From positions 1 through 37,326 of the forward strand of contig JAFXYD010000055.1 of the NCBI GenBank assembly GCA_017541995.1: 37,326 bases of DNA, written 5' to 3'. The position numbers and the translations under genes are program-made. The notes beneath the pieces are model-generated. The model made no database searches, had not been told where the DNA came from, and saw only the letters and a program-made list of their open reading frames with translations. Position 1 is the first letter of the stretch. Each line of letters starts with the position of its first letter. Below are positions 1,833 through 26,969 of this stretch, piece after piece. Source of the stretch: Oscillospiraceae bacterium. Its GTDB lineage: Bacteria > Bacillota > Clostridia > Oscillospirales > Oscillospiraceae.

Positions 1833-1861
1833 ATAATACATGATGCTGCGTGCCTTGTCAA
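1833..1861 (-). promoter_or_regulatory. Consensus sigma-A promoter of the SLH gene, overlapping the tmcAL stop
   Basis: On the minus strand, -35 TTGACA (1861-1856) and -10 TATTAT (1838-1833) are separated by 17 nt. The -35 hexamer overlaps the tmcAL stop codon (1858-1860), so the SLH gene is started from within the end of tmcAL. Confidence 0.75.
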
Positions 1862-3399
1862 TCGGTTGACCCGCTTTTTCGCAGTCGCGGATCCGGATCT
1901 TTCACGTTCCCGCAGCATTCGCTCTGCGCTTCATCCGGGGCTCCGAAAAACCGAACCCGCTGGCGGGCTTCTTCTCCGCCGGGGCGGGGGCCCTCCGCGG
2001 AGAAAAGGCTGTAGAGCTCGGCAGCCCGGCATTCCAGAGCGTAATATGCCCCGTCGGCGGGGCGCTCCCCGGCGTTCACCAGGGGGAAGCGCGGCTTCAT
2101 ACCCCGCAGCAGGACCCGGCCCCGGGGGTTGAAGCCCAGGATCCGGACGTAGGGGGCGGGGCGGGCCAGATCCTCGGCCCTCAGACCCAGGACGGCGCAG
2201 AGCAGCATTCGCTGTATCCGGGGGCGGGCGTAGCGCTTGGAAAGGGTGCTTTGCAGGATCTCCTCCGTGGAGCCGCGGCTGCGGCAGTTTTTCATCAGCT
2301 TGGACCAGAGGCCCTCGGCCCCGAAGGGGAGCTGTCGGAAGGCAGCATCGGGCAGGGTGCGGAGGATGGCCAGGGCGGCCCGTTCCCCCGCCTGCCAGGT
2401 ATGGAGGGGCGCGTTTTCGTACAGGGCGTGGAGGCAGGCTGGGACGGCGGCGAGCCAAAGGGGCACGGAGACGGGGGATAAGGATTCTTCGCTGCGCTCA
2501 GAATGACAGGAAATCGGGACGGGGGACGCGGATTCTTCGCTGCGCTCAGAATGACGGGGAGGAAGGACGGGGGATGCGGATTCTTCGCTTTGCTCAGAAT
2601 GACAAATTTGGAACGCTGCCGGGTCTGCGGGCGGCCGATGACCGCCCCTACAGAGAGGGTCGGCGGGGGCGGACGAGCAATGCTCGCCCCTACGGGCAGA
2701 GGCGGCGTCTTCGGGCGGCCGATGACCGCCCCTACAGGCGGGTGCGGCGGGCGGCCAATGACCGCCCCTACAGTCGGAGGCCAGGGCTGCGCGCAGGGCG
2801 GTGGCGGAGGGGGCTTCCGGGTCCAGGGCCTCGGCGTGGTAGCTGCCCGGGCGATGGATGGGCAGGGGCTCCATGGGGCTGCGCTGGCGCAGCAGGGCCT
2901 TGAGGTATTCCACGGCCAGGATGTCGTTGGGAGAGGAGACCCCCTCTCCTGCCCCCAGGGCCGTCAGGGCCCGCTGCCGGGCGGCGGCGTAGGAGCAGCC
3001 GCTCTTCAGCTCCCGGCGCAGCAGCTCGTCGAAGGCCGGGTCCAGATTGGCCTCCGCGCTGCGGCGCAGCAGGGCCGGGTCCTCGGTCTCCGTGCCGAAG
3101 CAGAGCCCGTCGCAGCCCAGGGCCGTGAGGATCCGGACGCCCCCGGCGGCGAAGCCCTCGGCGGAGGACAGGGCGGCGGTCAGGGGCAGCTCCAGCACCA
3201 GATCCGCCCCGCAGCGCAGGGCGGCCTCGGCCCGGATCGCCTTGGGGAAGATCGCCGGCGCTCCGCGCTGGACGTAGTTGCCGCTCATCAGGCAGACGAC
3301 GGCGCAGTCCTCCCCCGCCAGCTCCCGGGCCAGCCGAAGCTGCCGCGCATGACCCTTGTGCAAGGGATTGTATTCGCAGATGATGCCGATTGTTTTCAT
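1858..3399 (-). CDS. tmcAL: tRNA(Met) cytidine acetate ligase, with a repeat-derived insertion
   Basis: This is a TmcAL (YlbM-type) nucleotidyltransferase, which acetylates the wobble cytidine of elongator tRNA-Met using acetate and ATP. The start at 3399 gives MKTIGIICEYNPLHKGH with the nucleotide-binding HxGH motif at residues 14-17; GGGAG lies about 10 nt upstream. Family blocks follow: SGNYVQRG (39-46), GADLVLELP (64-72), SSAEGFA (78-84) and SPNDILAVEYLKAL (156-169). Later come LSKRYARPRIQRMLL and YVRILGFNPRG. The protein is 513 aa; the family is usually near 400. The excess is a segment at about 209-313 (DNA 2461-2775) translated entirely from two dispersed repeat families: four RGGH-type units and three HSERSEES-type units of 16 residues. 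The frame stays open through it. The C-terminal tail of about 25 residues also looks non-family. Acetate use fits the divergent neighbour ackA only loosely. Activity is plausible but unproven because of the insertion. Confidence 0.9.
   Translation of the reverse strand: MKTIGIICEYNPLHKGHARQLRLARELAGEDCAVVCLMSGNYVQRGAPAIFPKAIRAEAALRCGADLVLELPLTAALSSAEGFAAGGVRILTALGCDGLCFGTETEDPALLRRSAEANLDPAFDELLRRELKSGCSYAAARQRALTALGAGEGVSSPNDILAVEYLKALLRQRSPMEPLPIHRPGSYHAEALDPEAPSATALRAALASDCRGGHWPPAAPACRGGHRPPEDAASARRGEHCSSAPADPLCRGGHRPPADPAAFQICHSEQSEESASPVLPPRHSERSEESASPVPISCHSERSEESLSPVSVPLWLAAVPACLHALYENAPLHTWQAGERAALAILRTLPDAAFRQLPFGAEGLWSKLMKNCRSRGSTEEILQSTLSKRYARPRIQRMLLCAVLGLRAEDLARPAPYVRILGFNPRGRVLLRGMKPRFPLVNAGERPADGAYYALECRAAELYSLFSAEGPRPGGEEARQRVRFFGAPDEAQSECCGNVKDPDPRLRKSGSTD
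2482..2603 (+). repeat. Three 48-bp tandem units of a CATTCTGAGCGCAGCG-type repeat inside tmcAL
   Basis: Near-identical 26-bp cores with the sequence GATTCTTCGCTGCGCTCAG followed by AATGAC start at 2482, 2530 and 2578, exactly 48 bp apart. The third has TTTGC in place of TGCGC. The core is an imperfect inverted repeat (ATTCT...AGAAT). Read on the minus strand inside tmcAL, each unit encodes a 16-residue period around HSE(R/Q)SEES. The 48-bp period keeps the reading frame. Confidence 0.9.
2629..2772 (-). repeat. Four TGTAGGGG-palindrome elements inside tmcAL
   Basis: Copies lie at about 2629-2652, 2666-2693, 2713-2736 and 2749-2772. Each has, on the minus strand, (T)GTAGGGGCG followed by an inverted repeat ending CGCCC. 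Three use a GGTCAT(T/C)GGCC core; the second uses a GAGCATTGCTCG core. They are in frame and encode CRGGH(R/W)PP or RRGEHCSS. Confidence 0.88.
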
Positions 3400-3416
3400 G
3401 ATTTCACGGCTCCCAT

Positions 3417-3440
3417 GGCGCACACTGTGCGCCGCTACAA
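3417..3440 (-). repeat. Palindrome upstream of tmcAL, variant of the TGTAG element family
   Basis: GGCGCACA (3417-3424), one base, and TGTGCGCC (3426-3433) form a perfect inverted repeat. On the minus strand it is preceded by TTGTAGC. This matches the TGTAG-plus-palindrome layout of the other copies, except for GCG in place of GGG after TA. It lies in the leader region just before the tmcAL RBS. Confidence 0.5.
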
Positions 3441-19908: not shown

Positions 19909-19988
19909 GGCCAACGGCCACCCCTACGATTTCAAATCGTCGCGAAGCGACACCTCAATTATTCATTATTCATTATTCATTATTCATT
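19909..19988 (-). repeat. TGTAGGGG-type element, small palindromes and TATTCAT heptamer array at the fmt end
   Basis: GGCC-AAC-GGCC followed by ACCCCTAC (19909-19927) is another element of the GTAGGGG family. GATTT-C-AAATC and a GTCGC-GAA-GCGAC hairpin follow. About four units of TATTCAT run from 19959 to 19988. The fmt stop codon (19975-19973) falls inside the heptamer array, giving fmt a C-terminal MNNE. Confidence 0.75.
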
Positions 19989-24970: not shown

Positions 24971-25244
24971 CCACCTCATCCGCCCCAGTGTGCGCACTGG
25001 GGCACCTTCCCCTCAAGGGGAAGGCTTGCATCTTTGCACAGTTGCGTGTGTCCTGGAGTCCCTCTGCTCTTTCGGGACGCCACCTCATCCGCCCCAGTGT
25101 GCGCACTGGGGCACCTTCCCCTCAAGGGGAAGGCTTGCATCTTTTCGCAGTTGTGTGTATCCCGGAGTCCCTCTGCTCTTCTGGGACGCCACCTCATCCG
25201 CCCCAGTGTGCGCACTGGGGCACCTTCCCCTCAAGGGGAAGGCT
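24971..25244. repeat. Three 109-bp tandem units, each with two hairpins, between yicC and remA
   Basis: Units start at 24971, 25080 and 25189, exactly 109 bp apart; the third is cut after its hairpins by yicC. Each begins CCACCTCATCC. Hairpin 1 is GCCCCAGTG-TGCG-CACTGGGGC and hairpin 2 is CTTCCCCT-CA-AGGGGAAG. Through the hairpins and the following GGCTT, all three are identical; the linker between units 1 and 2 differs from the linker between units 2 and 3 at several positions. The array almost fills the 299-bp gap between yicC and remA and ends directly at the yicC stop. Confidence 0.92.
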
Positions 25245-26123
25245 TTATTCGATGTTCTGGATCTGCTCGCGGATTTTTTCCAGCTCGGCCTTGATATCCA
25301 CCACGGTGCGGGCGATTTCCAGGTCGGAGCACTTGGAGCCGATGGTGTTGGTCTCCCGGTTAATCTCCTGCATGAGGAAATCCAGCTTCCGGCCGATGGG
25401 CTCTGAGGCGCTCAGCATGGTCCGCAGCTGATCCAGGTGGCTGCGGAGCCGGACGGTTTCCTCGTCCACGGCCACCTTGTCGGCAAAGATGGCGGCCTCG
25501 GTGAGGATCCGGGCCTCGTCCACGGAGGCGCCTGTCAGCACCTCCTGCATTTTGGCGTAGAGCTTTTCCCGGTACTCGGCCACGGACTGGGGAGAACGGG
25601 CCTCCACAAAGGCCACCCGCTCCAGGATAAGCTCAGCCTTGGCCCTCAGATCCCGGGCCAGGGCCTCGCCCTCGGCCCGGCGCATGGCGTCGTAGCCCGC
25701 CAGGGCCTCGGCCACAACCCCCAGGAGCTGGGCCTTCAGCTCGTCCTCGTCCTGCTCCGCCTTTTCCACGGTGAAGACCTCGGGCAGTCGGGAAAGGCTG
25801 CTGACGCTGACGTCGTCCCGGACGGGGTAATCGTCGGCAATGGCCCGCATGGCGGCCAGATAGCCCTCCAGCACCGGGCGGTTGAGGCCGATCTTCACGT
25901 CGCTGCTCTGGGTGAGGTTGACGGTGACGAACACGTCCACCTTGCCCCGGGTGACGGACTGCTTCACCGCCTGCTTTACGGCGTCTTCGCAGAAGGCGTA
26001 GAGCCGGGGCAGCTTCACGCCGCAGTCCAGATAACGGTTGTTGACGGAGCGGAGCTCCACGGTGATCTGCTTGTCCGCAAATACGCCCACGGCCCGTCCG
26101 TAACCGGTCATACTTTTAATCAC
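25245..26123 (-). CDS. yicC: YicC/YloC family endoribonuclease
   Basis: This 292-aa protein belongs to the YicC family, reported as endoribonucleases that act in RNA turnover. The start is GTG at 26123 (read as Met), giving the family N-terminus MIKSMTGYGR; AAGGAGAA lies 5 nt upstream. SVNNRYLDCGVKLPR, RGKVDVFV and the C-terminal EPIGRKLDFLMQEINRETNT (20 residues) followed by IGSKC are diagnostic. In Bacillus the yloC-remA-gmk order is the same. Here the downstream gap is expanded by the tandem array, and upstream lies a degenerate J-like gene 23 nt away. Confidence 0.95.
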   Translation of the reverse strand: MIKSMTGYGRAVGVFADKQITVELRSVNNRYLDCGVKLPRLYAFCEDAVKQAVKQSVTRGKVDVFVTVNLTQSSDVKIGLNRPVLEGYLAAMRAIADDYPVRDDVSVSSLSRLPEVFTVEKAEQDEDELKAQLLGVVAEALAGYDAMRRAEGEALARDLRAKAELILERVAFVEARSPQSVAEYREKLYAKMQEVLTGASVDEARILTEAAIFADKVAVDEETVRLRSHLDQLRTMLSASEPIGRKLDFLMQEINRETNTIGSKCSDLEIARTVVDIKAELEKIREQIQNIE

Positions 26124-26822: not shown

Positions 26823-26969
26823 TCCGATCCCTGATCCTTGATCCCTGGTCCGTGCGGGGAAGCGCGGGACGGGGAACCCGTCCCCTACGGGCGGGTCTGA
26901 TGCCTGGTGCCTAATGCCTGATGCCTATCCCCTGATCCCTGATCCCTGATCCCTGATCCTTGATCCCTA
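26823..26969 (-). repeat. GATCCCT-type heptamer arrays surrounding a TGTAGGGG-palindrome element
   Basis: Degenerate 7-bp units (GATCCCT, GATCCTT, GATGCCT) occupy about 26826-26850 and 26897-26968. Between them GGGACGGG-GAA-CCCGTCCC followed by CTAC (26866-26888) is an oriented GTAGGGG element. The array runs into the stop codon (TAG, 26969-26967) of the membrane-protein gene. No promoter is visible in this 175-bp spacer. Confidence 0.8.

Follow-up and report, generated by a model that had tools for sequence, protein, structure and literature searches.

TmcAL acetylates the wobble cytidine of elongator tRNA-Met. In the window (the whole stretch of 37,326 nucleotides that was analysed), the open reading frame at positions 1858-3423 of the minus strand encodes a TmcAL according to both profile (PF05636, E-value 4.5e-93) and fold; the relatives of this protein include solved structures (5y0n-5y0t), and fold matches ranked below 5 are other nucleotidyltransferase folds, located on the N-terminal part. 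The reading frame is uninterrupted from end to end and has a GTG start (521 amino acids); the conserved methionine lies at 3399, from which the coding sequence (1861-3399) encodes 513 amino acids, with the ORF reaching upstream to the GTG at 3423. The divergent neighbour of tmcAL is an acetate kinase gene (PF00871, 3563-4750); acetate is used by TmcAL.

Both Pfam and phmmer match this TmcAL as two pieces, separated by an unmatched gap at about residues 216-356 (in the numbering of the 521-amino acid form). The N-terminal catalytic part (residues 1-203, ending with PSATALR; 2791-3399, minus strand) was delimited by invariant alignment columns; the invariant columns kept in two TmcAL alignments include H14, G16, H17, S198, A199 and R203. 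The C-terminal part starts at the conserved P320 (1861-2442, minus strand), as judged from alignments and AlphaFold2. Between the two parts lies a repeat-derived insert of 105 residues (209-313, counted from Met-3399 in the 513-amino acid form), delimited by linker length and pLDDT and predicted to be disordered: the 315 bp at 2461-2775 of the minus strand contain no stop and encode DCRGGHWPP...HSERSEESLSPVSVP. On the same strand, the insert contains four GTAG-tagged palindromes, at 2749-2772 (reads CRGGHWPP), 2713-2736 (CRGGHRPP), 2671-2694 (RRGEHCSS, with the variant stem CGTAGGGGCGAGCATTGCTCGTCC) and 2629-2652 (CRGGHRPP), and an array of three tandem 48-bp HSERSEES units at 2470-2613 (2470-2604 in the TRF call) with cores at 2578-2603 (reads HSEQSEES), 2530-2555 and 2482-2507. 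The preliminary description, which had reported four palindromes and three 48-bp units in frame and without a stop inside tmcAL, is confirmed in this respect. The start-to-start spacings of the repeats within tmcAL are 48, 48, 48, 42, 42 and 36, all six being multiples of 3, versus 9 of 50 spacings of other palindromes on the same strand in the fetched stretches of the genome (Fisher p = 1.5e-4; the 50 spacings are not independent, since some arrays contribute a spacing several times, and the psuK array, with 8/8 multiples of 3, was kept outside this comparison).

Both repeat families are dispersed, as had also been proposed: with up to 3 mismatches, the pattern of the GTAG palindrome has 213 matches in the source genome and the HSERSEES 23-mer has 29, with no match to either reversed control. 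Within the window, the 23-mer (up to 3 mismatches) occurs three times (0.00 in shuffles) and CGCCCCTAC five times (0.41 in shuffles), four of these inside the insert. In the centroid fold, the palindrome at 2629-2652 consists of TGTAG and then eight paired positions around a loop of 3 nucleotides; it has the unpaired GTAG at the end of a short stem-loop (stems of GTAG REPs are mostly 6-9 bp long) and, with its 213 matches, the high copy number and dispersal that are typical for GTAG REPs. The HSERSEES core forms an imperfect hairpin with compensatory changes: across 150 copies compared, one pair is T-A in 125, C-G in 24 and C-A in one, and another is C-G in 144 and T-A in six. Its stem has five pairs, a GA/AG mismatch and two further pairs, and the tail is CCG. 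Position -1 is T in 63% and C in 31% of copies, followed by G (98%), T (100%) and C (99%), and the stem starts with A-T in 145/150 and T-A in 147/150, giving a CGTC or TGTC tag and an AT stem start; conservation of the core is partly by construction, as the core is part of the search pattern, and position -1 lies outside this pattern. Four of the six reading frames are open in the palindrome, and likewise in the HSERSEES core. Single palindromes are capable of forming hairpins; a structured-RNA role for the whole insert was considered and found no support, with folding no better than that of shuffles (z = -0.20), and an Rfam scan of the window identified no family.

HSERSEES is present in 17 of the 23 genomes of the genus (up to 2 mismatches), with up to 234 matches in one genome, and is patchy across the order, where a stricter pattern (25-mer, up to 1 mismatch) was found in 4 of 147 genomes drawn. 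A composite element, CRDEHCSSGIRNECDLSETN, is itself dispersed, with matches in 17 of the 23 genus genomes and 60 matches in one of them. Contigs C2, C33, C47, C61, C74 and C88 of the source genome carry palindromes within about their first 100 bases, some in pairs 58 bases apart, suggesting that the repeats break the assembly. The window also contains two heptanucleotide tandem repeats, CTGATCC at 26897-26968 and ATTATTC at 19958-19988.

The TmcAL linker was compared across relatives. A homologue search of 59 genomes, including the source, gave a match in 57, with G022 matched only at the repeat stretch; in named assemblies, 217 encoding stretches were found and 79 loci kept (Oscillospiraceae, Clostridia and similar by title, many from ruminant guts). 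These 79 loci, 29 loci of the 59-genome search and the window make up an alignment of 109 rows, 91 of them distinct. The linker between R203 and P320 has 13 residues in 71 of the 91 distinct TmcALs and ranges from 9 to 116 residues overall (9-15 residues in 78, 17-116 in 13). The window TmcAL has 116, the other 12 lengthened rows 17-68. None of the 13 lengthened linkers breaks the frame or contains a stop, and all belong to one lineage of 15 rows (SH-aLRT 88), the remaining two rows of which have 14 residues. The idea that an expandable surface loop joins the catalytic to the C-terminal part, raised in the preliminary description, is well supported by this range of lengths and by the AlphaFold2 model. 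The tree test does not reject the long linkers as one clade (p-AU 0.47) or a single gain in their ancestor; the number of separate insertions leans on the identity of the families.

Repeats could be recognised by eye in 10 of the 13 lengthened linkers, including the window, and belong to four families in all: GTAG palindromes (window, L101, L104, L105), the composite element (L099, L102, L103, L110; the pattern matches the last three and the L099 copy was assigned via the alignment), HSERSEES (window, L100, L102, L110) and a family reading PSPL.EGAE.SEADEGG (L101, L106). L107 and L111 have repeat traces only, and no repeat was recognised by eye in the linker of L109. The window also has a 109-bp element in 2.5 copies at 24971-25245 (called by TRF, strand not given), which looks by eye to be related to the PSPL.EGAE.SEADEGG insert in the linkers of L101 and L106. 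HSERSEES linkers (window and L100; L102 and L110) and PSPL linkers (L101; L106) are each found at two separate places in the tree, which implies either repeated arrival or several losses. The closest relative of the window TmcAL is L099, with 85% identity over 373 columns, and its insert is a different one. An exact palindrome 15-mer is present in all 12 genus genomes with linkers of at least 22 amino acids versus one of nine with shorter linkers (Fisher p = 4e-5), a comparison that is confounded by kinship. Sampling was one genome per species, and insertion was deduced from comparisons across species.

For eight pairs of TmcALs, dN/dS is 0.11-0.28 in the N-terminal part, 0.11-0.30 in the C-terminal part and 0.43-1.13 in the linker, the linker values being derived from rough alignments that join partly unrelated repeats. 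Both TmcAL domains are under purifying selection and the linker is under weaker constraint. Between the window and L099, the values are 0.23 (N-terminal part), 0.21 (C-terminal part) and 1.13 (linker); linker values of other pairs are 1.09 (L105-L107), 0.51 (L102-L110), 0.43 (L104-L102) and, for the short linkers of L108-L112, 0.48. The tmcAL gene with its insert looks functional by these measures. AlphaFold2 predicts both TmcAL domains with confidence and gives pLDDT values under 50 at residues 216-292 and 296-299; together with the homologue alignment, this places residues 209-313 in a low-pLDDT linker between two confident domains, and the insert is predicted to be a disordered linker between the catalytic and the C-terminal domain.

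The repeats of the tmcAL insert are also present in frame in other core genes. The source genome has them in genes that match HI0933-like, CoaE, a laccase-like protein, RsmF (at two places), DNA polymerase I, DUF2344, a Toprim/DUF4093 protein and a P22-like portal; in relatives, they are found in aroE-aroK, citX-citG (two genomes), once more the Toprim/DUF4093 gene, and genes for TsaD-like, lipoate ligase, Orn/Lys/Arg decarboxylase, Orn/DAP/Arg decarboxylase, MoaA, U5-methyltransferase (two genomes) and RNA methyltransferase. The third-position G+C screen has both false positives and misses and returned 24 rows from 95 clusters, mostly from the source genome and some from relatives; the palindrome sample of the source genome comprises the first 100 of 213 places, and clusters lying 240 bases or less from where a fetched stretch ended were left aside. 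Six candidates were not counted among the decorated genes: L036, without a Pfam hit, L043, with a single weak one, L207 and L228, where the repeat precedes the likely start, and L321 and L326 (Pfam not run or no hit). By eye, insertion sites are common to orthologues in several decorated genes. In two species (L202 and L213), the Toprim/DUF4093 gene carries the composite element; the two sites coincide by eye, and the element is read there from the other strand than in TmcAL. An AroE-AroK fusion of G006 (L229:1423-2889) has four consecutive CHSERSEES units.

Among the 138 distinct HSERSEES sites that were assessed, third-position G+C supports the reading frame on both flanks of the repeat in 23, and these read HSERSEES (18), LR.AQND (3), FFAPLRMT (1) and VILSEAKN (1). 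At the gene level, an internal unit was counted in 18 genes, of which 13 use the HSERSEES frame (binomial p = 3e-5, with four open frames taken as equally likely); this count still includes L321, L326 and L252, and leaves out L047 (HSERSEES frame) and L062 (another frame), which failed the stricter screen. The bias persists in 11 of 16 genes (p = 3e-4) after removal of tmcAL and of L229, which had been chosen by similarity to the query protein. With four of the six core frames open, stops alone do not account for this bias. The suggestion of the preliminary description that the repeats are selected to be readable is supported solely in the sense of a filter acting after insertion: most frames of both repeats are open anyway, yet the 13 genes share one frame.

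The source genome has two Y1_Tnp genes. The one at C61:24504-24863 (32.7 bits, cut-off 23) encodes a protein with an HVH motif and a YIEYNP stretch and is flanked by inverted palindromes, two copies on one side and ten at a 48-bp period on the other, which is the repeat-flanked arrangement of a RAYT gene associated with GTAG REPs. One neighbour is a PfkB kinase gene and the other we take to be a pseudouridine-5'-phosphate glycosidase gene. At this place (L066, G000:C61:24453-26468), the PfkB frame, the 10-copy 48-bp palindrome array and the RAYT-like transposase follow each other in one open frame of 671 amino acids. Y1_Tnp matches are present in 12 of the 23 genus genomes; no match was found in the other 11, which are incomplete assemblies and include the long-linker genomes G002, G003, G007, G008 and G013. 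Among 23 Y1_Tnp loci in the genus, at least 10 have GTAG-tagged palindromes no more than 900 bases away, a lower bound as loci cut by contig ends (for example L180-L182, L187 and L188) were partly scanned, and two of these loci also have the composite element. No HSERSEES unit was found near Y1_Tnp at the 23 loci, those at contig ends being scanned in part. The GTAG palindromes are best read as REPs, because they flank a RAYT-like gene in the same genome, and their most likely mover is a RAYT-like transposase of the kind that this genome encodes.

In-frame insertion of palindromes is best known from Rickettsia. Rickettsia palindromic elements (RPEs) are described in PMC3767692 and PMC10969869 as palindromes in frame in core genes at solvent-exposed places, where orthologues can have elements of different RPE groups at one site or close to it. 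The repeats studied here are alike in all these features; they differ from RPEs in occurring in other bacteria and belonging to other families, in the palindrome-flanked RAYT-like gene and in the clustering of two families in one insert. RPEs serve here as a functional likeness, apart from any sequence comparison with RPE families. Di Nocera 2013 (PMC3733652) describes GTAG REPs, REPtrons with RAYT genes and intragenic REPs, some of them in tRNA-modification genes; intragenic REP clusters encode 43-82 amino acids, and recB of two Xanthomonas was struck at about the same site. Our palindromes share with these the GTAG tag, the short stem-loop, the high copy number, a transposase gene with inverted flanking copies and copies inside ORFs, including tRNA-modification genes; the differences are the 105 amino acids, the two families and the position at a joint that is used by other families in relatives. 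GTAG repeats are named there for Proteobacteria, Cyanobacteria, Chloroflexi and PVC, and the word Firmicutes is absent from the main text. The same paper counts RPE-4 and RPE-6 among the CGTC REPs, which are defined by a stem of 8-9 bp, a loop of 4-5 nucleotides and a tail that is mostly CCA. HSERSEES resembles CGTC REPs in its start (mostly [T/C]GTC), in the AT pair at the start of the stem and in that no transposase gene was found beside it, and differs in its stem, broken by the GA/AG double mismatch, and in its CCG rather than CCA tail, the CGTC consensus being taken from the text description. By analogy, the palindromes in the tmcAL insert would work like RPEs and intragenic REPs. As far as our searches reach, what is new is the host group, the size of the insert and its composition from two families, and the fact that at least four families use a single joint: among the literature matches listed, those for the repeat have no mention of the peptides HSERSEES or CHSERSEE, those on in-frame or intragenic palindromic repeats do not mention Oscillospiraceae, and the sole match for RAYT, Firmicutes and palindrome is unrelated by title.

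We consider it highly probable that short mobile repeats have inserted repeatedly at the TmcAL linker and are translated as a disordered linker that is mostly a passenger. Within a single lineage of Oscillospiraceae from the gut, non-autonomous mobile palindromes would insert again and again into a permissive inter-domain linker, the GTAG-tagged elements being of the REP type and most likely moved by a RAYT-like transposase, and the 48-bp unit would grow locally in tandem after insertion. Insertions that keep the frame and add a soluble, disordered stretch would survive the purifying selection on the flanking domains, and others would be lost. In this sequence of events, the act of transposition, the translation of the inserts, their disorder and their status as passengers under weak constraint are what we infer from the comparison.

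The composition or length of the linker could itself have come under selection, for example for tethering the tRNA or a partner or for tuning TmcAL abundance; the same hydrophilic HSERSEES frame in most genes with an internal unit and the constraint in the L102-L110 and L104-L102 linker pairs would fit. However, the linkers of window-L099 and L105-L107 evolve at dN/dS values above 1, the short linkers of L108-L112 show that values of about 0.5 require no new function, linker content is swapped between near relatives, the gene is retained with linkers of 13-14 residues, and the purging of hydrophobic frames alone can yield a frame bias; such co-option is unlikely. It is very improbable that the insert is absent from the mature protein through skipping at the RNA or ribosome level: single palindromes could provide hairpins for this, but skipping does not demand that 13 of 13 lengthened linkers are in frame and stop-free, and the insert as a whole folds like its shuffles. 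The source assembly is fragmented, with 122 contigs and a completeness of 78%, and repeats invite misassembly, yet inserts at the same joint are found in separately named assemblies, dN/dS is low in both domains and the invariant residues are retained; an assembly chimera or a decaying pseudogene is disfavoured and extremely unlikely.

Repeated insertion of mobile repeats into TmcAL may be part of a wider pattern. It is possible, and we propose it tentatively, that this lineage has a repeat-decorated proteome, in which at least four palindrome families, partly moved by RAYTs, keep providing core enzymes with disordered linkers at fixed permissive sites, and in which the HSERSEES frame is favoured for a peptide that is either useful or harmless. 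If this is true, TmcAL would keep a record of repeat invasions, with each species carrying its own set. The gut lineage offers many species, many repeat copies and RAYT-like genes in some of the genomes, and a single gene, tmcAL, allows inserts to be compared between 13 genomes at one common joint. In such a lineage it can be tested whether the inserts are carried along as passengers or serve as a source of new linkers, and at which sites and in which frames proteins tolerate them.
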